This document shows positions 32,090 to 49,219 of a DNA stretch of 64,000 nucleotides, in pieces. The stretch spans positions 2,919,501 to 2,983,500 of the forward strand of contig NZ_CP032677.1 in the NCBI RefSeq assembly GCF_003627215.1. Direction: 5' to 3'. The position numbers and the translations under genes were made by a program. How positions within the stretch are numbered: the stretch's first letter is position 1; each line of letters opens with the position of its first letter. This stretch comes from Pseudomonas sp. Leaf58 (GTDB lineage: Bacteria; Pseudomonadota; Gammaproteobacteria; Pseudomonadales; Pseudomonadaceae). The notes beneath the pieces were generated by a model. That model was given only the letters and a program-made list of their open reading frames with translations, was not told where the DNA came from and did no database searches.

Positions 32090-33307
32090 CTAGGTGACAG
32101 CGTCGATACGTTCGAAGGCCAGCGCCAAGCCTTGTCCCACCCCCACGCACATCGTGGCCATACCAAAGCGCCCCCCCGTCTTCTCGAGCTGGTGCACCGC
32201 TGTCAAGACCAGTCGATTTCCGCTCATCCCCAAAGGATGACCCAGCGCTATCGCTCCACCGTTGGGGTTCACTCGCTCACTGTCATCTGGCAAACCGAGC
32301 TCGCGCATCACTGCCAATCCTTGCGCTGCGAACGCTTCATTGAGCTCAATGACGTCGAAAGCATCAATTGTCATGTTCAGCCGTTGCAGAAGCTTTCGCA
32401 CAGCGGGAACTGGACCAATTCCCATTATTTCAGGCAGAACGCCGGCGCTGGCCATTCCAAGGACCCGGGCACGAGGCCTTAGACCGAACTTGTCTACAGC
32501 ATCAGCACTGGCGAGGATCATCGCGCTGGCACCGTCATTCAGGCCTGAAGCGTTGCCGGCAGTTACCGTGCAGTCAGGACCATTTACCGGTTTGAGTTTG
32601 GCCAGAGCTACTGCAGTGGTTTCAGGACGGGGGTGCTCATCGCACACGACAACGGTTTCGCCCTTTTTGCCGGGTATGATGACAGGAACAATCTCTTCAG
32701 CATAAAACCCACGCTCGATCGCGCTAGCAGCTCGTGCTTGACTACGCAGAGCCATGGCGTCCTGATCCTCACGAGAAATGCCGTACTGCTGGGCAACTTT
32801 GTCACCGGTCACCGGCATGCTATCGACACCGTACGCGCTTTTCATTGCCGGATTGATGAAGCGCCAACCGAGCGTCGTGTCCTCAAGTTTCTGCGTGCGA
32901 CCAAACGGGCCGTCAGCTTTTCCCATCACGTAGGGTGCGCGAGTCATCGACTCAACGCCTGCGGCAACGGCCAATTCCATTTCACCATTAGCAATCGCCC
33001 TGAAAGCCGCACCAACAGCTTCCAGACCGGATGCGCACAGCCGATTCAACGTCACACCAGGTACCGATGGGGAGAGCCCAGCAAGTAATAGCGCCATGCG
33101 CGCCACGTTGCGATTGTCTTCACCTGACTGGTTGGCGCACCCCATGAAGACTTCGTCCACGGCGGCCCAATCGATGCCTGGGTTGCGCTCAATCAACGCC
33201 TTGAGTGGGATGGCAGCAAGGTCATCCGCCCTCATCGCTGAAAGGGCTCCATTCAGGCGGCCAATAGGGGTGCGTACTGCATCACAGATGTAAACATCGC
33301 GACTCAT
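32090..33307 (-). CDS. Acetyl-CoA acyltransferase (PcaF-like thiolase)
   Basis: A 405-aa thiolase that cleaves 3-oxoacyl-CoA with CoA to release acetyl-CoA. The acylated cysteine lies in LNRLCASGLEAV (~residue 90), with NEAFAAQGL, GGAIALGHPLGMSG and the second cysteine in MATMCVGVGQG. It resembles beta-ketoadipyl-CoA thiolase (PcaF/PaaJ type), suggesting a dicarboxylic 3-oxoacyl-CoA substrate such as 3-oxoadipyl-CoA; that is inferred. ATG at 33307 has GGAGAG 5 nt upstream and is preferred over the longer frame. A palindromic operator lies ~90-105 bp upstream. Confidence 0.9.
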   Translation of the reverse strand: MSRDVYICDAVRTPIGRLNGALSAMRADDLAAIPLKALIERNPGIDWAAVDEVFMGCANQSGEDNRNVARMALLLAGLSPSVPGVTLNRLCASGLEAVGAAFRAIANGEMELAVAAGVESMTRAPYVMGKADGPFGRTQKLEDTTLGWRFINPAMKSAYGVDSMPVTGDKVAQQYGISREDQDAMALRSQARAASAIERGFYAEEIVPVIIPGKKGETVVVCDEHPRPETTAVALAKLKPVNGPDCTVTAGNASGLNDGASAMILASADAVDKFGLRPRARVLGMASAGVLPEIMGIGPVPAVRKLLQRLNMTIDAFDVIELNEAFAAQGLAVMRELGLPDDSERVNPNGGAIALGHPLGMSGNRLVLTAVHQLEKTGGRFGMATMCVGVGQGLALAFERIDAVT

Positions 33308-33394
33308 CAAAGCTCTCCATACACGAAGGGTCAGCGCTGCCAGTCGACGCGCGCCCACAGTGTCGGAGAGCACTTCAGCAGTGACAATGAGCTA

Positions 33395-33411
33395 GTTCCA
33401 CTGACTGGAAT
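33395..33411. promoter_or_regulatory. Candidate IclR operator upstream of thiolase gene
   Basis: GTTCCACTGACTGGAAT matches the palindrome GTTCCA-N5-TGGAAY that also occurs at 41825 and 44841. It overlaps the stop codon of the LysR gene and lies 88 bp upstream of the thiolase ATG. Confidence 0.6.
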
Positions 33412-34313
33412 CAGATCTCTGAGAAAAATCGCTTCCCGTCTGCCTTCAGCAGCTCGACCATCAGCCGCACAGCCGGTGCCAGATAGGCCTCCGCTCGCAC
33501 TGAAACGGCGACGGTCCGAGTCATTGTAGTCTCTGGAATAGGGACCTCTCTCAGCGTGGATTGCCAACGTCCAGACACTAATGTTTCCCGGGCCAGAAAG
33601 CTCAATAATTGCGTTTTGGCGATCAGTCTAGGCAGCAAGGAAACGGCATTTGCTTCAATCTGGACCGTAGGAGCAGGCAACTGATGTGACCTGAAGGCCT
33701 CGTCGATCCAGCGTCTGGAGGCAACTGCGTCGCCAGGCAAAACCCAGCGGTATTGGCATAGGGCTGCGATGCTGATAGCAGAAGAGAAGACGGAATGATC
33801 TGCGCTGGCTACGACGACAGCCTCATCTTGAAGAATTGGGAAGGTAAGCAGATGTGGATCGCCGGCATTCAAAGGGCAAATAATCGCATCCAGGCGCCCG
33901 GAGCTCAGGGACTCCCTGAGGATGTCATCTTGGCCGATCGAGAGTTTCAAACGCAGCTCGGGAGCGCGCTCCAACAAGAAGGATGCCAGCTGCGGAAGGA
34001 GGTGCTCGGCCATGCTCGCGGAACAGCCCAGGCGTATGGTTCCAATCTGCCCGCTCGCAAAGTCTCGTACTTCGCGCTCGGTCTCCGCAATACTCAGTTG
34101 TAACTGCCGCCCGCGCTGGAGAAGGAGCTCGCCAACCTCAGTGAGCCTTATTCTCCTGCCTTCTCGCCTGAAAAGCTGCGCGCCTAAAGCCTCTTCGAGA
34201 CGCTGAATGCTTTTGCTGAGCGCAGGCTGACTTTTGTGCAACAACTCTGCAGCTTTACCGAGATGACCCGTTCGGGCAATGGTCTCGAAGTAAGTGAGGT
34301 CCCTAAGATCCAT
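33411..34313 (-). CDS. LysR-type regulator between thiolase and AbrB-family genes
   Basis: A 300-aa LysR regulator, with helix-turn-helix segment GHLGKAAELLHKSQPALSKS (~residues 16-35) and a substrate-binding-like effector domain beginning IGTIRLGCSASMAEHLLPQL. It is divergent from the AbrB-family transporter gene at 34414 (100 bp gap), its most likely target. The thiolase gene follows on the same strand after 103 bp. Confidence 0.85.
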   Translation of the reverse strand: MDLRDLTYFETIARTGHLGKAAELLHKSQPALSKSIQRLEEALGAQLFRREGRRIRLTEVGELLLQRGRQLQLSIAETEREVRDFASGQIGTIRLGCSASMAEHLLPQLASFLLERAPELRLKLSIGQDDILRESLSSGRLDAIICPLNAGDPHLLTFPILQDEAVVVASADHSVFSSAISIAALCQYRWVLPGDAVASRRWIDEAFRSHQLPAPTVQIEANAVSLLPRLIAKTQLLSFLARETLVSGRWQSTLREVPIPETTMTRTVAVSVRAEAYLAPAVRLMVELLKADGKRFFSEI

Positions 34314-34413
34314 GATTCATAACTCTCGGTAATCGGTTCATCAAAAACAGCAAATGGACCACGCCCATTAGCCCCTCGGATAATCATCTGGCCCAGCATC
34401 CGAGGATTCTCCA

Positions 34414-35523
34414 GTGCCAAACCCCTCTTCACTCTCGAAGCCCGCCCTGCTGCAGTGGCTATGCGTGGTACTCGCAGCCGGCGCTGCGGGGCAATTTTTT
34501 CACTTCCTGCATATCCCTGCAGGTCTGTTCCTCGGGCCCATGCTCGCGGGCATTGCTTGTGGTCTTCTGGGCGTGACAATCCGTGTTCATCGTCATGCGT
34601 TTCGCTTCGGCCAAGGTTGCGTAGGTGTATTGGTGGCTCACTCGATGACTTGGCCAGTCATCCAGACGCTCGCACAATCCTGGTATCAGATGTTGGGTGT
34701 CACAGCCCTGACACTGGCCATGAGCGCACTGGTAGGCCTAGGAGCTATCCGATTCAGTGGCCTATCTAAAGCAACTGCAGCTTGGGGAACAGCACCCGGT
34801 GCAGCATCGGCGATGGTGGCAATGTCGGAGGATTATGGAGCTGATGCACGTGTGGTGGCGACCATGCAGTACGTTAGGGTGGTTTGCGTGGTAATAGTAG
34901 GAGCACTGGTGAGTCATGTGCTAGGTGCACAAACGCCCTCCTCGGGAGCCGCCAATGTGGGCCCGGTTGGAAACCTGACGGACTTAGTTATAAGTCTCGG
35001 GGTCATCTTAACCGGCGTTGCAGCGGGGACACGTCTACCGGCGGGCGCACTGCTGGTGCCACTGATGCTTGGTGGTGGACTTCAGCTGTCTGGTGCACTC
35101 ACGATTGATCTTCCCAGTTGGATCTTCAGCCTGGGCTACGGTTTGATCGGGTGCTACATCGGCCTTAGATTTGACCAACGAACCGTCACGTACGTCTGGC
35201 GGCAGATGCCCGCAATGGTTCTGAGCTCTAGCGCCCTTATTTTGCTGTGTGCCGGCTCTGCCTGGTGCCTTGCAAAGTTGATGAATATTGATTTTCTCTC
35301 GATGTACTTAGCTACGAGCCCAGGCGGCCTAGACGCCATGGCGATCCTCGCTGTCGAAACGCACGCAGACACTGGCTTCGTGCTCGCCACCCAAACGCTG
35401 AGGTTGTTTTCCGTGGTATTGGTCAGCGTGGTGATAGCGCGCCACGCTTTGCGAGCGGCGCCCACTGCCCCGGCAGAAAAAAAGGGACAGCCGAAGTTGT
35501 GGTCAACGGCCGACCCAAAATAA
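34414..35523 (+). CDS. AbrB-family membrane protein, putative transporter
   Basis: A 369-aa integral membrane protein of the AbrB duplication family (COG3180, sometimes named ammonia monooxygenase-like without evidence). Two homologous halves each begin with a glycine-rich helix pair (GPMLAGIACGLLG, LVPLMLGGGLQLSG), and TAAWGTAPGAASAMVAMS and TSPGGLDAMAILAVE are repeat signature loops. About ten helices. Probably a carrier, but family function is not established. Start is GTG at 34414 with GAGGA upstream. It converges on the FadB-like gene with 10 bp between stops. Confidence 0.8.
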   Translation: MPNPSSLSKPALLQWLCVVLAAGAAGQFFHFLHIPAGLFLGPMLAGIACGLLGVTIRVHRHAFRFGQGCVGVLVAHSMTWPVIQTLAQSWYQMLGVTALTLAMSALVGLGAIRFSGLSKATAAWGTAPGAASAMVAMSEDYGADARVVATMQYVRVVCVVIVGALVSHVLGAQTPSSGAANVGPVGNLTDLVISLGVILTGVAAGTRLPAGALLVPLMLGGGLQLSGALTIDLPSWIFSLGYGLIGCYIGLRFDQRTVTYVWRQMPAMVLSSSALILLCAGSAWCLAKLMNIDFLSMYLATSPGGLDAMAILAVETHADTGFVLATQTLRLFSVVLVSVVIARHALRAAPTAPAEKKGQPKLWSTADPK

Positions 35524-35533
35524 ACCCGCACAA

Positions 35534-37618
35534 TCAGCCTTGGCTAAGTGGAACGTGCTCTTTTGCTCTGGATTGAAGCAAAGCGCAAACATTCAATTGC
35601 CGATCAGGATGTTTGAGGGCCCACTGCCCCAAGGTTTCACCGACCTGAGTCAGCCCGACCTGATCTGCATAATAGAGAAGCCCACCCCGATAGCGCGGGA
35701 AGCCATATCCATGGATCCAGACAAGATCGATGTCATTAGGGCTGTCGACGATACCTTGCTCCAACATGTGAGCGGCTTCATTGATCATTACGAACAAGCA
35801 CCTCTGCAGGATCTCCTCGTCCGAGATTATCCGCGGCTCCAGTCCTCTCGCGTGACGGTGCTCAATAAGCATTCTCGCAACGAATGGGTCAGGAGCCCCC
35901 TTGCGCTGCCCCTCTTCATATCGGTAGTACCCCGCGCCGGACTTCTGGCCAAGACGGCCGGCTTCGTGGAGCTGCTCAATCAAATTGCATCGACGCTCAG
36001 CCTGGCCGAGGTGTTCCCCCCGGCCTTTCCTGTTGAACCACGCGATATCAACGCCAGCCAGATCACGCAGTTCAAAGGGACCGATCGGGAAGCCGAAGCC
36101 ACGTAGCACTCGGTCGACATCCTCTGGTGATGCCCCTTCCTCCAGCAAGAATGTCGCTTCGCGCTCGCGGACGGCCAACAACCGATTCCCTACAAAGCCG
36201 TAGCAGTTCCCTACCGCAACCGCAGTCTTACCCAAGCGCCCACCCAATTGGAGCACCGTCGCCAGCACATCGGGTTGCAGGTGAGCGGTTTTCACAACCT
36301 CGAGCAGCTTCATGACGTGAGCGGGGCTGAAAAAATGCATACCGATGACGTCTCCTGGGCGATCGGTAACACCGGCAATCGCATCGACATCGAGGTAAGA
36401 GGTATTGGTTGCCAGGATCGCCCCGGGCTTGGCAAAACGATCCAGCGTTCGGAAGACGTCTTGCTTGACGGCCAAGTCTTCAAACACTGCCTCGATGATC
36501 AAATCTGTATCCGCGATCGCCTCAAGACTTCCTTCGTATCGAATATGGCCAGCATGCTCAGCCGCCTTTTCTGCAGAGAGGCGGCCTTTCTCCAACGCGC
36601 TGGCATAGTAGCGCTCGACAGTCGCTCGTCCGCGATCAAGCGCCGCAGGCTGAGTATCGATCAGCAGTGTCTCGATACCCGCGTTAGCCAAACACAACGC
36701 GATACCACTACCCATCGTGCCCGCTCCGATCACCGCGACCGAATCAACGGCACGAACTTGGGCTTGTCTAGCTAATGTGCGGCGGCGAGAGGCAAGATCA
36801 CGCTCGGCAAAGAAGACATGCCGTAAGGCGCGTGCCTGAGCACTTTCACGCCGGGAAATAAACAGCTCTCGCTCCAACGCCATGCCCGCGTTAAAGGGAA
36901 CCTGCCAAGCTGCCTGCAGTGCTTGGAGCGCGAGAGGTGGAGCCTCCTGCCCCACAAGCTTATGAAGAATCGCTTGAGCCCTACGCTGGAAAACCGCTAG
37001 ATCAAATGCTGCCACGGTCCGATTGCATGAGCGCGGTATCGGCTGCCCAACAATCTCTTTGGCGAACTCCAGAGCAGACTCGAATACCGATGAGCGACTC
37101 AAGCGATCCAGTAAACCAATCTCCAACGCTTGCTCAACACCTAGCTGCTCCCCGCCCAATACCATATCGAGCGCCGGGAGCATCCCGCACAAGCGCGGCA
37201 GGCGTTGCGTTCCGCCAGCGCCGGGGATCAAGCCCAAACCCACTTCGGGTAGCCCGAACTGAGTGCCTGGACCTGCGATGCGGTAATGGCAGGCAAGCGC
37301 AAGCTCAAGGCCACCACCTAGGACCGAACCATGCATCGCAGCGATAACAGGCTTCGGCGAGTTTTCGATTGCCGCCAATACATCAGGCAGGTGCGGAGCC
37401 TGCAAAGGCAGATCGAACTCTTTTATATCGGCACCGGCGATGAAGGTACGCCCCTCACACACGATCACTACTGCCCGAATATCGGCGTCACCCGCCGCCT
37501 GCTCGAGTCTCGCAAGTACCTGTTCACGGACCTCACGCGAGAGGGCATTTACTGGCGGATTGTTGATGATGATCAGACCGACATCACCTTCGCGTTGAAG
37601 CGCTACGAGGGAGTGCAT
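35534..37618 (-). CDS. Bifunctional enoyl-CoA hydratase / 3-hydroxyacyl-CoA dehydrogenase (FadB/FadJ-like)
   Basis: A 694-aa multifunctional beta-oxidation enzyme. Residues 1-190 form a crotonase domain with the oxyanion motif HGSVLGGGLELALACH and the two catalytic glutamates (one there, one in LPEVGLGLIPGAGG). From ~290 comes the NAD-binding dehydrogenase domain (VIGAGTMGSGIA, MHFFSPAHVMKLLEVV, NCYGFVGNR), then its helical C-terminal domains. It hydrates an enoyl-CoA and oxidises the hydroxyacyl-CoA to feed the thiolase. It is the last gene of the ABC-porin unit. Start is ATG at 37618 with GAGAGAA upstream. Confidence 0.92.
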   Translation of the reverse strand: MHSLVALQREGDVGLIIINNPPVNALSREVREQVLARLEQAAGDADIRAVVIVCEGRTFIAGADIKEFDLPLQAPHLPDVLAAIENSPKPVIAAMHGSVLGGGLELALACHYRIAGPGTQFGLPEVGLGLIPGAGGTQRLPRLCGMLPALDMVLGGEQLGVEQALEIGLLDRLSRSSVFESALEFAKEIVGQPIPRSCNRTVAAFDLAVFQRRAQAILHKLVGQEAPPLALQALQAAWQVPFNAGMALERELFISRRESAQARALRHVFFAERDLASRRRTLARQAQVRAVDSVAVIGAGTMGSGIALCLANAGIETLLIDTQPAALDRGRATVERYYASALEKGRLSAEKAAEHAGHIRYEGSLEAIADTDLIIEAVFEDLAVKQDVFRTLDRFAKPGAILATNTSYLDVDAIAGVTDRPGDVIGMHFFSPAHVMKLLEVVKTAHLQPDVLATVLQLGGRLGKTAVAVGNCYGFVGNRLLAVREREATFLLEEGASPEDVDRVLRGFGFPIGPFELRDLAGVDIAWFNRKGRGEHLGQAERRCNLIEQLHEAGRLGQKSGAGYYRYEEGQRKGAPDPFVARMLIEHRHARGLEPRIISDEEILQRCLFVMINEAAHMLEQGIVDSPNDIDLVWIHGYGFPRYRGGLLYYADQVGLTQVGETLGQWALKHPDRQLNVCALLQSRAKEHVPLSQG

Positions 37619-37644
37619 CGTTTCTCTCCTGGTGAGGATATTGA

Positions 37645-38898
37645 TTACAGAAGCGACAACGGGTAGCTGACAATCACCCGCACATCATCGGCATCCCGAG
37701 CGAAGTCCGCGCGGTAGGTGGCACTGCGCAGACGCATGCTCAGCCCCTTCAGGGACCCGCTCTGCAACACGTACTGCAACTCGACATCGAGCTCGCGCTC
37801 GCCGTCCGAGCCCGAATCCACTCCGCGCACATCAGCTTGGTTGCCTTTCAGATATCGAGTCATGAAGGTCAACCCTGGGACACCCACGCTCGCAAGATCG
37901 AAGTCGTAGCGAGCCTGCCAGGAGCGCTCGTCCTTCTCGGCGAAGTCGCCCACCTGCACGAAGTTGACCAGGTAGGGGTCAGTGCCATCCACGTAGGGGA
38001 ATGCCGAGTCCCCGGACATTTTTTGGTAGCCGAGACCAAAAGCGTGGCCACCCAGTTTGTAAGTACCCATGACACTAAGTGCGCGGTTGTCGATAGGTCC
38101 GCCGCGGGCTTGCCCCTGATCGTCGCTATCGAACACGCGGACATCACTCGTGAATGAGCCCCAGGTGCCCTTTCTACGATCAGTCAGACCGTAGAATCGC
38201 TGGGTATAGACGTCTTCGAGAACCGCGTACTGAGCCAACAAATCCGTACTATCAGCAACGTGGTACGTCACTCCCATCAGGTTGAAATCACCGCCATCAA
38301 GAGGGCCGCTAAACCGACGGTTCTTGTTGTTCAGTGCCAGCCCTGTGGAACCGGATTGATCGCGATATACAGTTCCCTGGATCTTCGCCCCGGTAAACTC
38401 CAAGGCTTTCCATTCGTTGACCTGAATCTGGGCACCGTCGAATGTCTGGGGCAACAAACGTCCGTTGTTAGAGACCAGGGTCGGCCATTTTGGTATCAAC
38501 GTGCCGACACGGAGCTCGCTCTCGGACACCTTGACCTTGAGTGTCCCACCGGCTTTGGAGTAATTGTCCGGCACATCACCATCATCTTGCACGGGCAACA
38601 ACCCAGTACCCGAACGACCCGGCCCTGAGTCCAGCTTGACCCCGAGCATGCCGATTGCATCGAAGCCAAAACCTATAACACCCGGCGTGTAGCCCGACTC
38701 GTAGCGCAGAATGAAACCCTGGGCCCATTCCTGTCGCTTGGATTGCGCACTGCCTTCGCGAAAGTCTCGGCTCATGTAGAAGTTGCGCAGCTCCAGAGAA
38801 GCTTTGCTGTCTTCAAAGAACCCTTGCGCACCAGCAAGCGGCAGATACACGGCAAAGCCAACCCCTGCCGCGCAGAGCGGCATATTTTTTTTCATCAT
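37645..38898 (-). CDS. OprD-family outer-membrane porin
   Basis: A 417-aa OprD-type specific porin with a signal peptide (cleavage near LAGAQG, ~residue 25). Characteristic are FFEDSKASLELRNFYMSRDF at the mature N-terminus, the RQEWAQGFILRYESGYTPG strand, and the final WQARYDFD...RYLKGN pattern typical of OprD/BenF/OpdK proteins. It forms a substrate-selective channel, most often for aromatic or dicarboxylic acids. Placement between a binding protein and a beta-oxidation gene suggests it admits the same compound. The terminal residue is leucine rather than phenylalanine. Confidence 0.92.
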   Translation of the reverse strand: MMKKNMPLCAAGVGFAVYLPLAGAQGFFEDSKASLELRNFYMSRDFREGSAQSKRQEWAQGFILRYESGYTPGVIGFGFDAIGMLGVKLDSGPGRSGTGLLPVQDDGDVPDNYSKAGGTLKVKVSESELRVGTLIPKWPTLVSNNGRLLPQTFDGAQIQVNEWKALEFTGAKIQGTVYRDQSGSTGLALNNKNRRFSGPLDGGDFNLMGVTYHVADSTDLLAQYAVLEDVYTQRFYGLTDRRKGTWGSFTSDVRVFDSDDQGQARGGPIDNRALSVMGTYKLGGHAFGLGYQKMSGDSAFPYVDGTDPYLVNFVQVGDFAEKDERSWQARYDFDLASVGVPGLTFMTRYLKGNQADVRGVDSGSDGERELDVELQYVLQSGSLKGLSMRLRSATYRADFARDADDVRVIVSYPLSLL

Positions 38899-38978
38899 TA
38901 CTGCTTACCAAGAAGTTGATCGCGCGCGGCGGCAGTCCGTAGCCACCGCGCTGATCAGGCAGGAGTTTGCAAGGCGCT

Positions 38979-39977
38979 TCAGCGCACCTGGGTCAGGTAG
39001 TCTTCGGCTTTACCCGGGATTTTCTCGTTCTGGATCTCACCCAGGAACTTGATCGCACGATTGACTTCCTCATCGGTGAGGTAGGGTGTCTGGGGGAACG
39101 ACTTGCGATTGTTCTCCCACGCGGCTGCATAAACCTTGTCGTTCACGCCCTCGAAGCGGCTGCGAACGGACTTCATGGCTTCCTGAGGCTGCTCGTTGAT
39201 GAGTTTCGTGGCATCGCTCAAGGCAGCCAGGAAGGCTTTGACTGTGTCCTGGTTTTCAGTCGCCCACTGACGACGAGCACTGAGTGCAATCGATGGGTAG
39301 CCATCGAGTTCCGGTACCATTCCTTCGGACATGTCGAGCAACGTGTAGCCCTTATGGTCGATCACCGCGCTATCGGACGCCGGCGACGAAAGCGCAAAGC
39401 CGTCGATCTTGTTCTGGGCAAATGCTGCCAGCATCGCCGCACCGTTGTTGAGGTACAGAAGCGTGAAGTCTTTTTCTGCATTCAACTTCGCTTCTTTACC
39501 GAGGAAGCGCACGAGGAAGTCTGCACTGCCGCCGGCGCCGCTGACTGCCAAGCGTAGCCCCTTGAACGCAGCCAAACGTTGCTCAACCGTCGAGTCTGCT
39601 GTGAGGCCCAGGCGATCAGCGAGGTCTTGATGGATAACTATGTTGCTTGCGTATTGGCCGACCAAACGACCAAGCAGGGTGATGTCCGCGCCCTTCACCT
39701 TCGCGTTGATCGCATTCTGGATAGCACACGAGCAGAACTCGACCGAGCGACTGGCAAGCCCTGAGGCCGCCGCGCCGCCACCTTTGAATTTCACCAGTTC
39801 GACATCTAGTCCATGCTTTTTGAACTTGCCGCCGTCCAAGGCTACGAACAAGGGCATGTGAACAAACCCCTCCGTACCCAGAGCAACTTTAACGGTTTCG
39901 GCAGCCTGCGCGTAAAAGCTGGTTGCACTCATGGCAACGCTCAACCCCAGCGCAGAGAACAGACGCTTGATAGACAT
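38979..39977 (-). CDS. SsuA/NMT1-type ABC substrate-binding protein
   Basis: A 332-aa periplasmic binding protein with a signal peptide ending FYAQA-AE (~residue 24). The SsuA/TauA/NMT1 fold is shown by EGFVHMPLFVALDGGKFKK, the glycine-rich KFKGGGAAASGLAS and SVEFCSCAIQNA. Relatives bind sulphonates, nitrate, thiamine precursors or aromatic acids. The ATG at 39977 has AGAGGT 7 nt upstream and gives the signal peptide its normal start, so I prefer it to 40013. It is encoded with its permease and ATPase. Confidence 0.9.
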   Translation of the reverse strand: MSIKRLFSALGLSVAMSATSFYAQAAETVKVALGTEGFVHMPLFVALDGGKFKKHGLDVELVKFKGGGAAASGLASRSVEFCSCAIQNAINAKVKGADITLLGRLVGQYASNIVIHQDLADRLGLTADSTVEQRLAAFKGLRLAVSGAGGSADFLVRFLGKEAKLNAEKDFTLLYLNNGAAMLAAFAQNKIDGFALSSPASDSAVIDHKGYTLLDMSEGMVPELDGYPSIALSARRQWATENQDTVKAFLAALSDATKLINEQPQEAMKSVRSRFEGVNDKVYAAAWENNRKSFPQTPYLTDEEVNRAIKFLGEIQNEKIPGKAEDYLTQVR

Positions 39978-40013
39978 GGCAAAGACCTCTTTTTGTTGTT
40001 GTGTTGGTTGCAA

Positions 40014-40781
40014 TCAGACGGACAGTTCACGTTCTTCCTGATCTTTTTTCCAAGGCATCAATGACGCTTCCAGTTTGCGCACAGCGGCTTGGAGGATCAG
40101 CGCAAGCGAGATGATTGCAATGAGCGCGGCGAACACGCCTGCCGTATCCAGCTGCCCGGCAGCGTCCTGCAGCAGATAGCCCAAGCCTCGGTTGGCGGCC
40201 ATGATCTCGCCAACGATGGCGCCGATCAGCGCGTACGGGACCGACATCTTGAGGCCGGTAAATACCCACTGAATTGCCGAAGGCAGGACGACTTTGGTAA
40301 TCAGGTGATGCTCTTTGGCACCCATCAACCGCAAAATTTCCAACTGCTCGCGCTCCACAGCACGAACACCGCTGTAGGTGTTGAGGAACACCAGGAAGAA
40401 GACGATGGTGGCGGTAAGTATGATTTTCATCTCTATGCCGATTCCGAACCACATGATGAAAAGTGGAGCCAAAGCGACTTTCGGCAGGCTGTAAATCGAG
40501 ACAAGAATCGGGTCGAGCAATTTAGCCAGAAGCTCATTGCGACCGAGGATCAGGCCAACCGATATACCTGCGCAAGCGCCGAAGAAGAAGCCCACGAGGG
40601 TTTCAACCACAGTGATCCAACCATGCGAGAACAGACGGCCACTGGCGACCAGGTCAATGAAGCGGCTTCCGATTTCCAATGGCGAACTCACGAAAAACGG
40701 GTCGATCAATGGGCCTGAAGCGAATTGCCAGGACAGAAAGAGCACAGCAAAAATGGCGACACGGCCGAGGAAGATTTTCAT
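40014..40781 (-). CDS. SsuC-type ABC transporter permease
   Basis: A 255-aa inner-membrane permease of the binding-protein-dependent transport family with about six helices. The EAA-like loop is RAVEREQLEILRLMGAKEHH with the conserved glycine, followed by LPSAIQWVFTGLKMSVPYAL. It forms the channel of the importer with the ATPase encoded just upstream (26 bp gap) and the binding protein downstream (36 bp). Confidence 0.92.
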   Translation of the reverse strand: MKIFLGRVAIFAVLFLSWQFASGPLIDPFFVSSPLEIGSRFIDLVASGRLFSHGWITVVETLVGFFFGACAGISVGLILGRNELLAKLLDPILVSIYSLPKVALAPLFIMWFGIGIEMKIILTATIVFFLVFLNTYSGVRAVEREQLEILRLMGAKEHHLITKVVLPSAIQWVFTGLKMSVPYALIGAIVGEIMAANRGLGYLLQDAAGQLDTAGVFAALIAIISLALILQAAVRKLEASLMPWKKDQEERELSV

Positions 40782-40807
40782 GTTCGTAATTCTCCGGAAG
40801 AAGGACC

Positions 40808-41635
40808 TTAGGCGTCATGAGAGGGAGTAATGAACTCCCAAAGATCGCCGCACAACTCGTGGTAACGCGGGTCCTTGCGTAGCTGGAGAATGTTGCGGTC
40901 ATCACCTAGAGGGATACTCACGTCGCGAACGATAGTGCCCGGACGTCCAGAAAAGATCAGGCAGCGATCGCCCAATGCCACGGCCTCATCCAGGTCGTGC
41001 GTGACGAACAGCACCGTTTTGTTGAGCTGACGGCTGAGCTTGAACAGCTCGGTCTGCATACGCATACGCAGCTGTGCATCGAGTGCAGCGAATGGCTCGT
41101 CCATCAGCAAGGTTTCTGGGTCGTAAGCCAGCAATCGAGCCAGCGCAGCGCGCTTGCGCATGCCCCCGGAAAGCTGGCTGGGATACGCCTTTTCATGCCC
41201 CTCAAGACCCACAAGGGACAGTAGTTCGCGAATCCGCTCCTGTCGCTTGGCTTTCGGGACCCCTTGGATTTCCAGCGGAATGGCGATATTGCCAGTCACA
41301 TCACGCCATGGCAGCAAATGGTCGCTTTGGGTCATGTAACCGGTACGGCCGTTGATACCTTGAACAGCCTGGCCCCGGTAAAGCACTTCACCTGTTGTAG
41401 GCGCGAACAGCCCGGCGACCATGTTCAAAAGAGTGGACTTGCCGCAACCCGAAGGACCGATGATGGTCACCACCTGGCCTTGTTGGATGTCGACATTGAT
41501 GCTGTGGGAGGCTTGCTTGGCAACCCCCTTCACGGTGAATGACTTCGAAACCTCTCTGAACGAAATAACCGTCGGTGAGACGGCTTTTGCGCCGATAGGC
41601 TCAGGTGAAGTGGCACTTTTCAACACGGCGGTCAT
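40808..41635 (-). CDS. SsuB/TauB-type ABC transporter ATPase
   Basis: A 275-aa nucleotide-binding subunit. Walker A is GPSGCGKST (~residue 59), the Q-loop MTQSDHLLPW, the signature SGGMRKRAALARLLAYDP, Walker B LLMDEPFAALD and the switch histidine in VTHDLDEA. The residue set is complete. The first ~25 residues are a linker-like extension. It begins the ABC-porin-FadB unit; about 190 bp upstream lies a palindromic operator also found upstream of two other units. Confidence 0.94.
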   Translation of the reverse strand: MTAVLKSATSPEPIGAKAVSPTVISFREVSKSFTVKGVAKQASHSINVDIQQGQVVTIIGPSGCGKSTLLNMVAGLFAPTTGEVLYRGQAVQGINGRTGYMTQSDHLLPWRDVTGNIAIPLEIQGVPKAKRQERIRELLSLVGLEGHEKAYPSQLSGGMRKRAALARLLAYDPETLLMDEPFAALDAQLRMRMQTELFKLSRQLNKTVLFVTHDLDEAVALGDRCLIFSGRPGTIVRDVSIPLGDDRNILQLRKDPRYHELCGDLWEFITPSHDA

Positions 41636-41824
41636 GGCGATACTCCCGGCACGAAGGTGGCGTTCAGCTCAAAAATCTTGACTGTCGCAACTGAAGTGGT
41701 CGAAAGAGCGCTGCGCCGAGAAGCGGCGGAATAGAGAGTGTTCATAGCGACCTACTTATTTTTATGAGTCAGAAATGAAGCGTTCTTTGATTATGCAAGC
41801 GTGAGATATGAGGTCAAAGAGGCT

Positions 41825-41841
41825 GTTCCACTGAATGGAAC
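41825..41841. promoter_or_regulatory. Candidate IclR operator upstream of the ABC-porin-FadB unit
   Basis: GTTCCACTGAATGGAAC is a perfect palindrome with 6-bp arms and 5-bp spacer; with flanking bases the stem grows to 10 bp (41821-41845), so it might also act as a terminator after the ligase gene. It matches the sites at 33395 and 44841. Confidence 0.6.
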
Positions 41842-41852
41842 AGCCGATTTTT

Positions 41853-43934
41853 TCACGCGATGATCGTCAAGCCATCCAGAGCGATGACCCCGCTACCCGC
41901 AGGACGAACAAGGAGCGGGTTGATTTCCGCCTCGACCAATCGGTCGCCGAGCTGCATGGCCATTTGCGAAAACGCCACGATGCATTTGGCTGCGGCGTCG
42001 ACGTCTGCCTTTGGCATGCCGCGGAAGCCATCCAATAGCGGGTAGGTTTTCAGTTCACTCAGCATTTCCCGGGCTTGCTCTTCACTCACAGGCAGAAGAC
42101 GCAAGGTCGTATCCTGGAAAAGCTCCGCAGTGACGCCTCCCATTCCGAGCAGCAGTGCTGGGCCGAGCTGAGGGTCCCGGTGGAAGCCGAGGATCAGCTC
42201 CTGCCCGCCAGTGACCATCTCCTGGACCAGGAACGACTCCGGGGTGAAGCCGACATGCCCGCCGACCTCATCCCGCATGCGCTCCAAACGATCCCCGATG
42301 GTGTCCGAAGTAAGATGCAACGCTACTCCACCCACTTCACTCTTGTGCGGGATCAGTTCCGAGAGCACTTTCAAGGCTACATGACCGCCGAGTTCGCTCG
42401 CGGCCTGCGCTGCTTCTTGCCCGTTCTTCACTACCCGTTCGCGAGTGACCGGGATGCCAAAGCCCGCGTACAAGCGCTTGCTACGCTCCTCATCAAGCGG
42501 ACCACTTGGCAGTTCTTCCACCCTAACTGCTGCCGCTGACGGGGCTACATCGGCCGCACTCGCCGACCTCACCTGACCGCTCATGACCAAAGCCTTTAGC
42601 GCGCTAGCGCAGCTCTCCGGAGCATTGAACGCAACACCACCCGAGCCGTTGATACGCTGAGCTGCTGCGGGGGCGTGGGGACTGATGTAGGCCAGGACTG
42701 GCTTATCCGAACTCGCTAGGCTGTCGCGAATAGCGTCCGCCATCAAATGAGGTTGAGCGACACCCGATGAGCCAACTACGCTGACCACCGCATCGTAGTC
42801 ATCGCTGTCGAGCAGAATGCCGATGGCGCTGCGCATCAACTCTGGCTGCAAGCCTGCGAGGGTCAAATCGATGGGATTGCGGTCGAGCACCGCTTGGTCA
42901 CCGATGTCCAAGTTACGCAGCTTCTCGGCAGTTTCCGGCCCAGGCGCAGGTGTTTCGAAACCGCTCATGCCCAGGTTGTCGGCGATCAGGGTGCCAGCTC
43001 CGCCGGTCGAGGTCAGGATCGCTACACGATAGCCATTCATCGATCTCCCGCTTGCCAACGCGAAGGGGATATCGAGCAAATCCGCGAAAGTTTCCGCGCG
43101 GATCACACCGAGCTGCTTGAAGTAAGCGGAGTACAAGTCGTCAGAGCCAGCCAGCGCGCCCGTGTGCGAATTGGCGGCATGAGCACCTGCTTCGGACCGC
43201 CCTACCTTGTAAACCACAACTGGCTTACCAGCACTGCTGGCCTTGCGAGCTGCTCGACTGAATTTTTCGCTGTCGCGCAGTCCTTCGATGTACAGCGCGA
43301 TGACCGATGTGGCAGGGTCATCAGCGAGATAGTCGACGAAGTCTGCGACGTCGAGATCGACCTCGTTGCTGGTGGAAATGAGCTTTGAGAAGCCAATTCC
43401 GGCAGCGACACCGCGAGAAAGAAGAGCGCCCAGGATACCGCCGCTCTGAGAAACCACAGCGACACGGCCGGGGAGCAGTGCGTCCATGTCCAATGCACCA
43501 CTTGCAGAGAGGGTCACGTGCTCCGTGAGGTTGACCAGCCCGATGGTATTAGGACCAAGGATTCTCATCGAGCCGCGTGCTGCCTTGAGCTCTTCTTGCC
43601 GTAGAGCCCCGGTTGTGCCGGTCTCACCATAACCACCCGCCAGTACGATTGCTGCTGGGCAGCCGCGTGCAGCCAGATCGGCAACAGCCTGGTTGGCCCG
43701 CTCTGGACCAAGCAATATGATCGCCACATCCGGCACCTCCGGCAGCGCCTCCACCGAGGGATAGCAGCGCAATCCGTCGATTTCCTCATACCGCGGGTTC
43801 ACCGGGTATAGCCGGCCCTGGAAGCCATGTTTGCGAAGGAATGCGATGGGGCGGCCGGAGGTTTTCCGGGCGTCACCCGATGCGCCGATAACGGCGACGC
43901 TGGCAGGGCTGAGAAGACGTGCAATCTGGTCCAT
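41853..43934 (-). CDS. NDP-forming acyl-CoA ligase (acetyl-CoA synthetase family)
   Basis: A 693-aa fusion of the alpha and beta parts of ADP-forming acyl-CoA synthetases. The N-terminus is a CoA-binding Rossmann domain (VAVIGASGDARKTSGRP), followed by succinyl-CoA-ligase-like domains with VVSQSGGILGALLS and the phospho-histidine loop ANSHTGALAGSDD (~residue 257). The C-terminal ~220 residues are an ATP-grasp domain (LKVLSELIPHKSEVGGVALH, EINPLLV). It likely activates the imported acid to its CoA thioester. It starts 3 bp after the enoyl-CoA hydratase stop. The substrate is not readable. Confidence 0.88.
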   Translation of the reverse strand: MDQIARLLSPASVAVIGASGDARKTSGRPIAFLRKHGFQGRLYPVNPRYEEIDGLRCYPSVEALPEVPDVAIILLGPERANQAVADLAARGCPAAIVLAGGYGETGTTGALRQEELKAARGSMRILGPNTIGLVNLTEHVTLSASGALDMDALLPGRVAVVSQSGGILGALLSRGVAAGIGFSKLISTSNEVDLDVADFVDYLADDPATSVIALYIEGLRDSEKFSRAARKASSAGKPVVVYKVGRSEAGAHAANSHTGALAGSDDLYSAYFKQLGVIRAETFADLLDIPFALASGRSMNGYRVAILTSTGGAGTLIADNLGMSGFETPAPGPETAEKLRNLDIGDQAVLDRNPIDLTLAGLQPELMRSAIGILLDSDDYDAVVSVVGSSGVAQPHLMADAIRDSLASSDKPVLAYISPHAPAAAQRINGSGGVAFNAPESCASALKALVMSGQVRSASAADVAPSAAAVRVEELPSGPLDEERSKRLYAGFGIPVTRERVVKNGQEAAQAASELGGHVALKVLSELIPHKSEVGGVALHLTSDTIGDRLERMRDEVGGHVGFTPESFLVQEMVTGGQELILGFHRDPQLGPALLLGMGGVTAELFQDTTLRLLPVSEEQAREMLSELKTYPLLDGFRGMPKADVDAAAKCIVAFSQMAMQLGDRLVEAEINPLLVRPAGSGVIALDGLTIIA

Positions 43935-43937
43935 GAT

Positions 43938-44744
43938 TCAGCTCCGCTCTGCCTTGCGAGCAAGGAAGGCGGCAACCGACTCCTGATGCTCGCTGGAGGT
44001 GTAGCAGATTCCCTGGGCTTGGCTGCCCATGGAGAAGATCTGGCTCTGGGTCAGCTCGAAGGTGTTATTGAGGATCGACTTGCTCAGCGCCAAAGCGGTA
44101 GCCGAGCCAGCAGAGATCTGCTGAGCCCAATCCCGAGCTGCAGGGAGAAGGTTCTCATGCGGTGCCACGCGATCGATCATCCCGATCTGCTGTGCTTCGG
44201 ATGGCGAAACGTTGCGACCGCTGAAGATAAGCTCTTTTGCTTTGCTCAGCCCAACACGGCGTGGAAGGAAGTACAAACCACCGCCATCAGGAATCAGGCC
44301 CCGCGCGATGTAACTCATAGCGAAAGAGGCTTGCTCGGATGCGATGATGAAATCACAGCTCAGCGCCATATCGCAGCCCAGCCCGGTTGCCGCGCCGTTG
44401 ACTGCAGCAATGGTGGGTTTAGGCAGGTTATGGAGCAGCGACACTGCATGGTGGACGCGCTGCTGCCGCTTCCAGCCGTTGAAGGCTACCGAACCGGCCG
44501 GTGCACTCATCCGGGCTTGCATGCCCTTGATGTCGCCGCCGGCGCAGAAACCTTTGCCAGTGCCGGTCAGGATCAGCGCTTTGATGCTGCTGTCCGCCGC
44601 GACATGCTCAAGGTGCTCGATGAGCAGCGATCGCATTTCATCGCTGATGGCATTACGTGCCTCTGGACGGTTGAGCGTCAGGGTTGCGATACCGTCAGTG
44701 ACGGTAAGGTCGATCGGAGTCGACAATTCCGGGGAAGTCGTCAT
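43938..44744 (-). CDS. Enoyl-CoA hydratase/isomerase family protein
   Basis: A 268-aa crotonase. The oxyanion-hole segments CAGGDIKGM and GAATGLGCDMALSCDF are present. The usual first catalytic glutamate position is C-D-M rather than L-E-L, and the second reads ARGLIPDGGG, with aspartate after proline, so it may be an isomerase, hydrolase or ring-cleaving relative rather than a plain hydratase. It starts the operon with the acyl-CoA ligase and is divergent from the IclR gene. ATG at 44744 has AGAGG 7 nt upstream. Confidence 0.88.
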   Translation of the reverse strand: MTTSPELSTPIDLTVTDGIATLTLNRPEARNAISDEMRSLLIEHLEHVAADSSIKALILTGTGKGFCAGGDIKGMQARMSAPAGSVAFNGWKRQQRVHHAVSLLHNLPKPTIAAVNGAATGLGCDMALSCDFIIASEQASFAMSYIARGLIPDGGGLYFLPRRVGLSKAKELIFSGRNVSPSEAQQIGMIDRVAPHENLLPAARDWAQQISAGSATALALSKSILNNTFELTQSQIFSMGSQAQGICYTSSEHQESVAAFLARKAERS

Positions 44745-44826
44745 GCGGTGCCTCTCTTATTATTCGGTTGATTGACCGCCCAGCAATGAGCCAAGCTTGA
44801 TTCCAATCTGAGGGAGAGTGATTTTC

Positions 44827-45663
44827 ATGACAACGCGACCGTTCCACCTATTGGAACATGGCGAGAGCGGCCTTACCTCACCTCACATCCCTGGGCAAGG
44901 CAAGGCACCGCTCAATCGCTCGCTGGAGCGCGGGCTAGATATTCTTCGCGCCTTCAGACCCGGCAGCGAACATCTGACCAATGGGGACCTGAGCGAGATC
45001 ACCGGACTATCAAAGTCCACTGTCAGCAGGCTTACACAGACCCTCGTACGCTCTGGTTTCCTGGATTTCGACAGTATTTCCAGGGGCTACAGGCTAGCGC
45101 CTTCGGTACTTGGCATGGCCCACTCCATGTACCACGGCAGCTTTCTGCTTCAAGTCGCTACGCCTCTGATGGCCCAGGTGGCGCGAGACCACCAAGTGAA
45201 TGTTGGCCTAGCCGCAGCGGACGGTGACGAGATGATCTACCTCGAGTCGATACGTTTTAGTAAACGCAAATCTCCGCGAAACGTACTGACCGGCCAGCGG
45301 CAGCCCATGGAAATGACATCCTTGGGTAGAGCCTATCTATCGATCCTGGACGAAGCGCAACGACGGCCTCTGATCGAGCTGTTCAGATCAAGACGATGCG
45401 AAGCCAGGGCTGGACAACTTGCGCTAGAGATCGAGGCCGCGATTGCCGATGTGAAAAACAACGGGTATTGCGTAGCGTCATGGCAGCCTGAAGTCATCGC
45501 CATCGCTACCCCGCTGAGCCACCCGGTGTACACAACTCACGCTCTGAACATCAGCCTATCGACGGTCGAAGCTCAGGAAGGTGTGATCGAACGGTATGCT
45601 CCGATTCTTCTGAGCCTCGCCGATGCCATCCGTGCAATGCTTGCTCGGCCTGAGAATGAGTGA
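44827..45663 (+). CDS. IclR-family transcriptional regulator
   Basis: A 278-aa IclR regulator. The winged helix covers ~residues 30-90 (LNRSLERGLDILRAF, TGLSKSTVSRLTQTLVRSGF) and the effector domain follows (MEMTSLGRAYLSIL, NNGYCVASWQPEVIAIATPL). I prefer the ATG at 44827 (GGGAGAG upstream) to the GTG at 44818. An operator-like palindrome lies within its first codons, indicating autoregulation; a start further downstream at TTG 44851 cannot be excluded. Divergent from the hydratase-ligase genes. IclR proteins commonly control catabolism of aromatic or organic acids. Confidence 0.88.
   Translation: MTTRPFHLLEHGESGLTSPHIPGQGKAPLNRSLERGLDILRAFRPGSEHLTNGDLSEITGLSKSTVSRLTQTLVRSGFLDFDSISRGYRLAPSVLGMAHSMYHGSFLLQVATPLMAQVARDHQVNVGLAAADGDEMIYLESIRFSKRKSPRNVLTGQRQPMEMTSLGRAYLSILDEAQRRPLIELFRSRRCEARAGQLALEIEAAIADVKNNGYCVASWQPEVIAIATPLSHPVYTTHALNISLSTVEAQEGVIERYAPILLSLADAIRAMLARPENE
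44841..44857. promoter_or_regulatory. Candidate IclR operator in the divergent IclR/hydratase region
   Basis: GTTCCACCTATTGGAAC, a perfect 6-bp-arm palindrome, lies 97 bp upstream of the hydratase ATG and just inside the IclR coding start. The same arms and spacing occur at 41825 and, with one change, at 33395. Confidence 0.65.
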
Positions 45664-47699: not shown

Positions 47700-47717
47700 G
47701 TAAGGATTATTCCTTAC
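47700..47717. promoter_or_regulatory. Toxin-antitoxin operator, copy 1
   Basis: GTAAGGA-TTAT-TCCTTAC is a perfect inverted repeat 30 bp upstream of the antitoxin ATG, placed as expected for autoregulation by an AbrB-fold antitoxin. Copy 2 has the same site. Confidence 0.55.
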
Positions 47718-47747
47718 CATTTATTCAATACATCCGGGAGAACACTC

Positions 47748-48026
47748 ATGCCTGCCATCCACGAAATCGCCACACTGACCTCAAAGGGGCAGGTCACACT
47801 GCCCAAATCCGTTCGCCAGCTACTCGGGCTTGATACCGGTGGCAAGATTGCATTCGACGTACGCGGGGGTGAAATCGTGGTCAGCCGCGTAGAAACCACC
47901 CACGAAGACCCTGCCATCGGTGCGTTCCTGGGTTTGCTGGAGGCTGATATCCGAGGCGGCCGCAACCTCACCACTCTCCGGAAGACTTGGCGCAAACCAT
48001 GCTCGCCAACGCAAACCACCCTGTAA
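47748..48026 (+). CDS. prlF: PrlF-type antitoxin with frameshifted C-terminus, copy 1
   Basis: A 92-aa AbrB/SpoVT-fold antitoxin: residues 1-70 (ATLTSKGQVTLPKSVRQLLG, IAFDVRGGEIVVSRVE) are normal. After GRNLTTL the frame shifts and ends in an unrelated basic tail at 48026. In the adjacent frame the sequence continues PEDLAQTMLANANHPVNLDE and ends at a TGA (48062-48064) overlapping the toxin ATG, which is the normal arrangement. So one base appears to be missing near 47980. The identical change is in copy 2. GGGAG lies 8 nt before the ATG at 47748. Confidence 0.8.
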   Translation: MPAIHEIATLTSKGQVTLPKSVRQLLGLDTGGKIAFDVRGGEIVVSRVETTHEDPAIGAFLGLLEADIRGGRNLTTLRKTWRKPCSPTQTTL

Positions 48027-48063
48027 ACCTGGACGAAGAGATCGACGGTGAGGTCGCGATCTG

Positions 48064-48525
48064 ATGGTGCGACATGGCTGGACACTGTTGTTCCATGAAG
48101 GTGTGACTTTACAGCTACGCAAATTGCAAGAAGCCGCCGCCCGGGCCGAGCAGAACGACCCACACGGTTTTGAAAGCAACGCCAACGTGAAGCTGTTTCG
48201 GGCATTGAGCCATCTGATCATGGAGGCTGTGCCTGCCGACCCGGGCCGTGATGAGTTTCGCCAAGGCAACACGCTGGGCACCTCCTACCGACATTGGCGG
48301 CGGGCAAAGATCGGTAGGCGCTTTCGGCTGTTCTTTCGCTACGACTCAAGATCCAAGGTCATCGTCTATGCATGGGTCAACGACGAAAATACCCTCCGGT
48401 CTGCAGGCAGCAAATCCGGTCCCTACGCCGTATTCGAGAAGACGCTGGGCCGCGGCAACCCTCCTGATGACTGGGATGCGCTGATTACTGCAACGCGTAG
48501 CAACTGGGACGAGCCCAAAGCATAA
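48064..48525 (+). CDS. yhaV: YhaV-type toxin, copy 1
   Basis: A 153-aa ribonuclease toxin of the YhaV family (RelE-like fold), which cleaves mRNA when not held by PrlF. Diagnostic segments are NGW-like HGWTLLFHEG, LGTSYRHWRRAKIGRRFRLFF (basic, presumably RNA-binding) and YAWVNDENTLRSAGSKSGPY. Full length and intact. It starts with ATG at 48064, overlapping the stop of the ancestral antitoxin frame as TGATG. Confidence 0.9.
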   Translation: MVRHGWTLLFHEGVTLQLRKLQEAAARAEQNDPHGFESNANVKLFRALSHLIMEAVPADPGRDEFRQGNTLGTSYRHWRRAKIGRRFRLFFRYDSRSKVIVYAWVNDENTLRSAGSKSGPYAVFEKTLGRGNPPDDWDALITATRSNWDEPKA

Positions 48526-48673
48526 GCTGCGCGACTGGGTGAGGGATTGCACGTTTGACACCGCCCCCCTCGGTGCGGCCACTGTAGTCCACGCGTAGCT
48601 GCTGCAAAAAGGGGTACATCTGGGGGTACAAAATCATTTTTCTATTCATAACTTATTGATTTAAATGAATGGC

Positions 48674-48706
48674 CAAATGTTTTTTGGCGATCCTGACAGT
48701 CTTTAG
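48674..48706 (+). repeat. Duplicate of the mexT 3' end (candidate right attachment core)
   Basis: Encodes QMFFGDPDSL and a stop codon, exactly the MexT C-terminus, with three synonymous differences from 20755-20787. It follows directly on toxin-antitoxin copy 1. A further partial copy (49830-49843) ends copy 2 and is cut by the IS5 fragment. Confidence 0.65.
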
Positions 48707-48854
48707 AGCGGCTCAGAGGCATTCAAAAGCCGCCTTTCAGGAACCGTTCAGCACTAATACCGATCGTGTCCCGGGCAGTGGTGTAACTCATCCTGCGGCG
48801 TTGCTGAACGTCCGCGCCACCCATGCTCGATCAGCAGGAAACCAAGATTGACCA

Positions 48855-48874
48855 GGTAAGGATTATTCCTTACC
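48855..48874. promoter_or_regulatory. Toxin-antitoxin operator, copy 2
   Basis: GGTAAGGA-TTAT-TCCTTACC, a perfect inverted repeat with 8-bp arms, 30 bp upstream of the second antitoxin ATG. Confidence 0.55.
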
Positions 48875-48903
48875 ATTCATTCAATTCATCCGGGAGAACA
48901 CTC

Positions 48904-49182
48904 ATGCCTGCCATCCGGGAAATCGCCACACTGACCTCAAAGGGGCAGGTCACACTGCCCAAATCCGTTCGCCAGCTACTCGGGCTTGATACCGGTGGCA
49001 AGATTGCATTCGACGTACGCGGGGGTGAAATCGTGGTCAGCCGCGTAGAAACCACCCACGAAGACCCTGCCATCGGTGCGTTCCTGGGTTTGCTGGAGGC
49101 TGATATCCGAGGCGGCCGCAACCTCACCACTCTCCGGAAGACTTGGCGCAAACCATGCTCGCCAACGCAAACCACCCTGTAA
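48904..49182 (+). CDS. prlF: PrlF-type antitoxin with frameshifted C-terminus, copy 2
   Basis: Same 92-aa product as copy 1 except for arginine instead of histidine at residue 5. It carries the same apparent one-base loss after GRNLTTL, so the frameshift is older than the duplication, or the frame is used as it stands. The normal continuation frame is open to the toxin start at 49220. Confidence 0.8.
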   Translation: MPAIREIATLTSKGQVTLPKSVRQLLGLDTGGKIAFDVRGGEIVVSRVETTHEDPAIGAFLGLLEADIRGGRNLTTLRKTWRKPCSPTQTTL

Positions 49183-49219
49183 ACCTGGACGAAGAGATCG
49201 ACGGTGAGGTCGCGATCTG

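Follow-up and report, generated by a model that had tools for sequence, protein, structure and literature searches.

The locus and its three palindromes

The window analysed here is a 64,000-nt stretch of Pseudomonas sp. Leaf58 DNA (contig NZ_CP032677.1, positions 2,919,501 to 2,983,500), in which the gene of an IclR-family regulator lies beside minus-strand genes predicted to import and degrade an acid. Both domains of the regulator score above their Pfam cut-offs (HTH_IclR, PF09339, 62.3 bits against 22; IclR_C, PF01614, 55.6 bits against 24), and its gene, which putatively encodes the activator of the regulon described below, occupies 44827–45663 on the plus strand. The start was taken as the ATG at 44827, picked for the Shine-Dalgarno (SD)-like sequence before it; the mechanical open reading frame (ORF) begins at GTG 44818. 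A sequence-only reading of this DNA had reported the palindrome GTTCCA-N5-TGGAAY at 44841, 41825 and 33395, always 5′ of a minus-strand unit, and a pattern search of the window recovered all three copies at these coordinates and in this arrangement. Putative operator 1 (GTTCCAATAGGTGGAAC in the crotonase direction, 44841–44857, minus strand) precedes the crotonase-ligase unit and at the same time forms codons 5–11 of the IclR gene. Putative operator 2 (GTTCCATTCAGTGGAAC, 41825–41841, minus strand) lies between the ligase and the ATP-binding cassette (ABC) genes, 5′ of the importer-porin-FadB unit; like operator 1 it was delimited by pattern search and syntenic clusters. Putative operator 3 (ATTCCAGTCAGTGGAAC, 33395–33411, minus strand), found by pattern search and by the TTG composite introduced below, stands 5′ of the thiolase, between this gene and the end of a LysR gene that it overlaps by one base. 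As previously described, the first two are perfect palindromes with 6-bp arms and the third matches on one strand with one change on the other, an outer position at which it reads A, or T on the opposite strand.

We consider it very probable that the adjacent IclR-family protein uses these palindromes as operators, through which it would activate three minus-strand units for the import and degradation of an acid. The single IclR regulon proposed in the sequence-only reading is supported by the uniqueness of the arrangement in the genome, by its recurrence in orthologous clusters and by the operator class to which the sites belong.

Occurrence of the motif in the genome and in the genus

With two mismatches allowed, the motif is at chance level in the window (10 matches, a number equalled in 15 of 100 shuffles); since this count is uninformative, significance was drawn from genome counts. 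A genome-wide search had been set beforehand as a check, and the exact motif is not scattered over the 6.34-Mb genome: it occurs at five places, namely the three cluster sites and two sites within ORFs. The latter (L001 and L005, one of them in a serine-rich repeat ORF) were dropped as regulon members. The core TTCCA-N5-TGGAA is present at 17 places, compared with 6 for the reversed control, and the 14 copies outside the cluster all lie within mechanical ORFs of at least 100 codons, which by itself is weak evidence in so gene-dense a genome. If a TTG is further imposed 8 bases after the core, exactly the three cluster sites remain and the reversed control returns none. The three-site arrangement is not due to chance.

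The IclR protein was found at E ≤ 1e-50 in 11 of 398 genomes of the genus, this genome included, and the 20 kb around each of the other ten orthologues served as a first comparison set. Crotonase, ligase, ABC, OprD and FadB genes keep an identical order in 8 Pseudomonas clusters (window included), and operators 1 and 2 are each present in 8 of these 8 with at most one change, their spacers being variable. Presence in orthologous clusters was the other check set beforehand, and this result agrees with that of the second set of loci presented below. Operator 1 lies inside the IclR ORF in the window and in L041–L043 and just 5′ of the start codon in L047–L049. Two further loci, L044 and L045, have the IclR orthologue beside a related porin and other partner genes, with the palindrome 5′ of the porin gene: the operator has moved and is yet retained where the IclR 5′ end has lost it or where the partner genes differ. 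In L044 the N-terminal IclR peptide is partly kept and the motif is about 300 bp upstream. These partners comprise a CaiB-type CoA-transferase, MmgE/PrpD and TctC/TctA, named by likeness, the CoA-transferase having been tested on L056.

The composite GTTCCA-N5-TGGAAY-N7-TTGNC, which joins the palindrome to a putative −35 box, was found in 12 of the 398 genomes of the genus. It occurs in 9 of the 11 that have the IclR protein and in 3 of the 387 that lack it (both scans are draws of 398 genomes, and their handles agree where listed). A reversed control appeared once, in G076. Among the 11, it is missing from G126, where the −35 is TTGAAC, and from G057, the genome of a relative with a 43% identical protein. 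The three matches without an IclR orthologue (G085:C150:139751, G117:C1:3718154 and G230:C1:3408464) share one near-identical sequence, the G085 copy lying within a 621-aa ORF.

In the window and in L041, genes for a LysR regulator and an AbrB-type membrane protein (33411–35523) are found between FadB and thiolase; this pair is not present there in L043. The separation from FadB may be the reason for the thiolase having an operator of its own, an explanation that fits, although operator 3 is based on two close genomes.

The palindrome accompanies the IclR orthologue across taxa

A scan of named genomes yielded a second set of 42 IclR loci from Pseudomonas, Stutzerimonas, Cupriavidus, Paraburkholderia and other Burkholderiales, Achromobacter, Bordetella, Azospirillum and some metagenome-assembled genomes. 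Five of them (L051, L053, L057, L061 and L063) repeat first-set loci and several are close strains, so that the second-set counts are not independent events. The core is present in 38 of the 42, with 62 copies in 844 kb, and eight permuted cores gave 0 each. Most copies are near module genes or the IclR start, some in L088 and L089 not. The palindrome thereby accompanies the IclR orthologue through clusters with little else in common, and it is comparison between genomes that brings out the putative operators, their link to this orthologue and their fixed spacing to the predicted −35.

Gene content varies around the conserved sites. CaiB-type CoA-transferase, MmgE/PrpD and tripartite tricarboxylate transporter genes replace or adjoin the window genes in L044, L045, L056–L060 and L089, with the palindrome kept. 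Nine Paraburkholderia-type loci have a pair of palindromes 44–46 bp apart in the divergent region between a major facilitator superfamily (MFS) gene and crotonase-ligase (near 12220 and 12264 in L067–L069, L071, L072, L075 and L092; 4801 and 4847 in L073; 10197 and 10243 in L077). These pairs point outwards with 7 bp to each −35-like hexamer, which is TTGTCA on the MFS side and begins with GTG or ATG on the crotonase side, as if each divergent promoter had its own palindrome.

A known operator class

According to a survey of IclR operators, GTTYCRYW3RYGRAAC (GTT-11-AAC) is one of four subgroups of the main group, group 1 (PMC8222616; Suvorova and Gelfand 2021). The Pseudomonas sites share with it the 17-bp palindrome and identical arm letters (GTTYCR/YGRAAC), in line with the earlier proposal that IclR proteins bind palindromes of this kind; the spacer letters beside the arms fit only in part. 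Sites outside Pseudomonas, TTTCCA or ATTCCA-N5-TGGAAT (WTTCCA-N5-TGGAAW), fit instead the WTT-11-AAW subgroup. Unlike the group-1 consensus, the sites described here stand at a constant 7 bp from the −35 and, in one case, have an extra paired stem. Nearly identical letters are listed for GenR of Corynebacterium glutamicum, ATTCC-N7(5)-GGAAT (PMC8222616, Table 1), a regulator that, unlike the present cluster, concerns gentisate/3-hydroxybenzoate genes in a distant organism. The best NCBIfam subfamily for our IclR protein is PcaR/PcaU/PobR (TIGR02431), and membership was rejected at 121 bits against a cut-off of 284.75. The end product 3-oxoadipyl-CoA would be common to both if the pathway guessed below holds, whereas the operators published for that subfamily differ in their half-sites, and some include a third box (PMC8222616). 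In the open-access literature, supplements apart, we found no paper pairing IclR with a word starting TGGAAC, and the consulted parts of the open-access Ralstonia PcaR paper (PMC12543098) do not describe this cluster. The operator class is thus already known, and the putative regulon is a further example of a known switch type.

Fixed distance to the −35 and the mode of regulation

Seven bp after each window site, in the gene direction, stands TTGTCA or TTGACC (TTGNCN). A TTG at this distance was seen in 20 of 20 sites examined first and in all 23 second-set sites from Pseudomonas/Stutzerimonas, of which 14 are new relative to the first set. When both sides of all 62 second-set sites are scanned, 33 have TTG at distance 7, and each of the other distances between 0 and 19 is represented in 0 to 4; the ten TTG-bearing sites beyond the 23 are nine Paraburkholderia-type sites facing the MFS gene and one from Azospirillum. 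An alignment of 34 Pseudomonas sites shows no variation in the inner pentamers or in the TTG, and in 34 of 34 the operator lies wholly upstream of the −35 at one distance.

The predicted importer promoter (41790–41817, minus strand) is of the sigma-70 type, TTGACC-16-CATAAT, matches the consensus at 10 of 12 positions and was obtained by promoter scan and alignment, although the scan itself was little above shuffles (2 promoter-like sites in the region against a mean of 1.1). The other two promoters are predicted by consensus match only, with the −10 taken as the best of four spacings. For crotonase-ligase this gives TTGTCA (44828–44833), 16 bp and a weak −10 TCAGAT (44806–44811), together 44806–44833 on the minus strand, a promoter that was not among the promoter-scan matches; for the thiolase it gives TTGTCA (33382–33387), 17 bp and a weak −10 GACACT (33359–33387, minus strand). 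Both −10 hexamers are poor, matching at 3–4 of 6 positions even as the best of four spacings. Because the operators lie upstream of the −35 at a constant distance and the −10 boxes are weak, the arrangement suggests that the IclR protein is an activator of these units in preference to a repressor.

We infer from these sequences that IclR binds the sites and activates rather than represses. An IclR dimer would occupy each palindrome, with its centre some 50 bp upstream of the predicted transcription start and a gap of exactly 7 bp to the −35, and in the presence of the acid or its CoA ester it would activate the crotonase-ligase, importer-porin-FadB and thiolase units. As operator 1 lies within the first codons of the regulator, IclR may also damp its own transcription.

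An extended inverted repeat at operator 2

Around operator 2 the inverted repeat extends to 41821–41845 (no strand assigned), with outer arms that appear to covary between species, a candidate hairpin. Beyond the constant C-G and U-A, the next two pairs form at all 13 importer sites compared (G-U counted), with A-U, G-C and C-G exchanges; of the two outermost pairs, one fails at 4 and the other at 5 of these sites. Covariation scores 0.319, compared with 0.118 in shuffles, and 20 cells are changed on both sides, compared with 8.8; none of 500 shuffles reached either value. When flanks were permuted among 10 distinct operator-2 sites, the observed 28 of 40 pairs stood against a mean of 16.9 and was reached 25 times in 20000 (at operator 1 the count is 9 of 40). 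These sequences being related, neither the shuffle nor the permutation figures are probabilities. Pair and pair-type counts, measures less open to relatedness, do not exceed shuffles at the 13 sites (4 against 3.9 and 9 against 8.2, respectively), and at operator 1 no covariation measure rises above shuffles in 12 sequences. The candidate hairpin follows the ligase stop codon; no T run is found in the operon direction and a T-rich tail is seen on the plus strand in the window. At the same position, L074 and L076 (Achromobacter) are without the extended stem.

One tentative and rather doubtful explanation is that operator 2 is under dual selection: the inner arms would act as the DNA operator of the importer operon, and the whole repeat would fold into a hairpin in the 3′-terminal RNA of the ligase transcript, its pairing preserved by compensatory substitutions in the outer arms. 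Binding of the activator could then be physically coupled to processing or termination of the upstream message.

Alternative explanations

Several observations weigh against an activating IclR regulon. The core is absent from 4 of the 42 second-set loci (L065, L078, L084 and L091), with copies bearing three and two changes near the IclR start in L078 and L084, respectively, and the L050 locus, that of the 43% identical protein, has no palindrome with at most one change. No TTG is found at 7 bp in 29 of the 62 second-set sites, all outside Pseudomonas/Stutzerimonas; many of them read GTG or ATG there, L070 and three L088 sites neither. The invariance of the pentamers is partly built in, the sites having been chosen by their palindrome, which does not apply to that of the TTG. 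Operator 3 is seen elsewhere only in the close relative L041, and directly before the thiolases of other loci there is no palindrome with at most one change (for L043, up to two changes); in L043 the thiolase gene directly follows FadB without a palindrome of its own. The importer promoter, being near consensus, would suit repression too. One alternative is chance or coding constraint, with operator 1 kept as code for the IclR N-terminus and the other sites coincidental: operator 1 does lie within the ORF in the window and in L041–L043, and one-mismatch copies of the pattern are no commoner in the genome (45+41) than those of the reversed control (57+50). This we regard as extremely improbable, since an operator 5′ of the start codon in L047–L049 leaves coding constraint no explanation, the motif of L044 is some 300 bp from a partly kept N-terminal peptide, the composite is unique to the cluster, and the 38 core-bearing loci and the TTG distances also contradict it. 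The palindromes could otherwise serve another protein, such as the LysR regulator at 33411–34313, with operator 3 directly after its gene and before the thiolase, or a regulator elsewhere in the genome. However, a close relative of this LysR (99%) is seen only in L041, the motif follows the IclR orthologue through otherwise dissimilar clusters and it belongs to the IclR operator class, so that this too is very improbable.

Other alternatives keep part of the IclR regulon and change its working. The same regulon with IclR as a repressor that frees the operators upon inducer binding is a distinct possibility, albeit a minor one: the IclR-family PcaR is called a repressor in Ralstonia CL21 (PMC12543098), the importer promoter matches 10 of 12 consensus positions and operator 1 lies within the 5′ codons of the regulator itself. 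The position of the operators, wholly upstream of the −35 at a fixed distance in all 34 aligned Pseudomonas sites, and the poor crotonase and thiolase −10 hexamers speak instead for activation. At 41825 the repeat might mainly be a terminator or an mRNA 3′-end hairpin after the ligase, its likeness to the other sites being secondary. The extended stem, with outer pairs changing on both sides, and the T-rich tail on the plus strand would agree with this (terminator-like matches number 4 against 3.0 in shuffles, few above chance), but the inner arms are letter-invariant where the outer arms vary, the same arms stand without the extended stem at operator 1 and with at most three consecutive outer pairs before OprD genes, and the operon direction has no T run; we find a terminator as the main role very improbable. 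An IclR regulon with activation from fixed upstream operators is therefore retained as the preferred explanation.

Leaders with Crc/Hfq-type motifs

Downstream of these putative operators, two leaders carry candidate signals for translational control. Directly 5′ of the crotonase SD, AATAATAA (44757–44764, minus strand) contains the Crc/Hfq-type motif AANAANAA, identified by leader comparison. Of 13 Pseudomonas loci, 11 have it between −20 and −22; none of the 4 TTT-type Pseudomonas loci has it; within 40 nt of the extrapolated start, many starts being approximate, it is found in 0 of 26 beta/alpha loci, and in L074 it lies at −42. By the same comparison, the importer unit opens with a 37-codon leader ORF (41632–41745, minus strand) whose stop overlaps the ABC start (ATGA) and which has AAAAATAA at −18 from its own start. 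The motif at −18 of a short leader ORF recurs in 12 of 13 loci, L052 being without the signature; the ORF spans 29–37 codons, its stop falls between 5 bases before and 16 after the ABC start, and its body varies between clades. In the window, the conserved leader at 41632–41763, GACTCATAAAAAYAAGTAGGTCGCTATGAAC, combines an A-rich motif of the Crc/Hfq type with a conserved leader-ORF start. Hfq with Crc inhibits the translation of RNAs bearing such a motif near their start (PMC5429807), and the crotonase and importer leaders both carry it there, as putative targets. On preferred carbon sources Crc/Hfq may accordingly repress translation of the crotonase-ligase and importer units.

Enzymes, transporter and a candidate acid

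The genes under the putative operators, all on the minus strand, would form a coherent route. The crotonase-fold protein (43938–44744; PF00378) is more probably a PaaG-like isomerase than the hydratase of the sequence-only reading, a label that could not be kept: at the places that we assume, along with their rat numbering, for the hydratase Glu pair, the window protein and all 47 orthologues compared (>55% identity) have Asp and Tyr. Its PDGG motif belongs to an [IV]PD motif that aligns with E. coli PaaG (4fzw_C); the window protein and 47 of 47 orthologues all have the Asp, the motif reading ADGG or SDGG in L071 and L090. This Asp may have a catalytic role; PaaG itself is described with one catalytic glutamate (PMC4498308).

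Next come an ADP-forming acyl-CoA ligase (41853–43934; PF13607, PF13549 and PF13380), whose best solved relative is a 4-hydroxybutyrate-CoA ligase, and the importer, recognised by profile matches: an ATPase of the SsuB/TauB type (40808–41635), a permease (40014–40781) and an NMT1/SsuA-type substrate-binding protein (38979–40013), the last also by structural relatives. They are followed by an OprD-family porin (37645–38898), whose best solved relative is OpdH, named as a cis-aconitate porin, and by a FadB/FadJ-like hydratase-3-hydroxyacyl-CoA dehydrogenase (35534–37618) that keeps the hydratase Glu pair according to profiles and alignment. The thiolase (32090–33307, likely start ATG 33307) is a 3-oxoadipyl-CoA thiolase of the PcaF type, above cut-off for NCBIfam TIGR02430 (683.5 bits against 597) and NF006551.

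In the lower phenylacetate (Paa) pathway, PaaG shifts the double bond of dehydroadipyl-CoA from Δ3 to Δ2, after which hydration, oxidation and thiolysis follow (PMC4498308). This sequence of isomerisation, hydration, dehydrogenation and thiolysis (PaaG, PaaF, PaaH and PaaJ) fits our crotonase, FadB-like and thiolase genes, the difference being that the cluster would start from an imported acid by way of the ADP-forming ligase. Ring-opening genes were not found among the ten proteins scanned against profile libraries, and an acyl-CoA dehydrogenase, sought with adipate as a substrate in mind, was not found in the window (0 of 28 genome hits to PF02771). Given a PaaG-like crotonase and a thiolase of the 3-oxoadipyl-CoA type, a β,γ-unsaturated C6-type dicarboxylic acid is a reasonable guess: ligase, isomerase, FadB-like enzyme and thiolase could convert it, without an acyl-CoA dehydrogenase, to succinyl- and acetyl-CoA, its degradation ending as 3-oxoadipyl-CoA. 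That the substrate is specifically a 3-hexenedioate-like acid is a speculation we would not put high. The variant clusters encode proteins of the MmgE/PrpD family, and substituted 1,4-dicarboxylates are the substrates of its characterised members (PMC12290011).

Elsewhere in the window, at 47714–49681, a stretch of about 1.16 kb is tandemly duplicated, and the 153-aa ORFs at 48064 and 49220 are identical. Both may encode a YhaV-type toxin of a toxin-antitoxin pair.

Implications

The putative regulon can be followed from operator to promoter to pathway, a map that is nearly complete and testable. The acid pathway would recur in Pseudomonas, Burkholderiales and Azospirillum beside three kinds of transporter, namely ABC, tripartite tricarboxylate and MFS. 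Since the operator stays with its regulator through changes of transporter and enzyme genes, this branch of the IclR family may be a good case for finding an inducer and for studying contact with RNA polymerase at a fixed distance.

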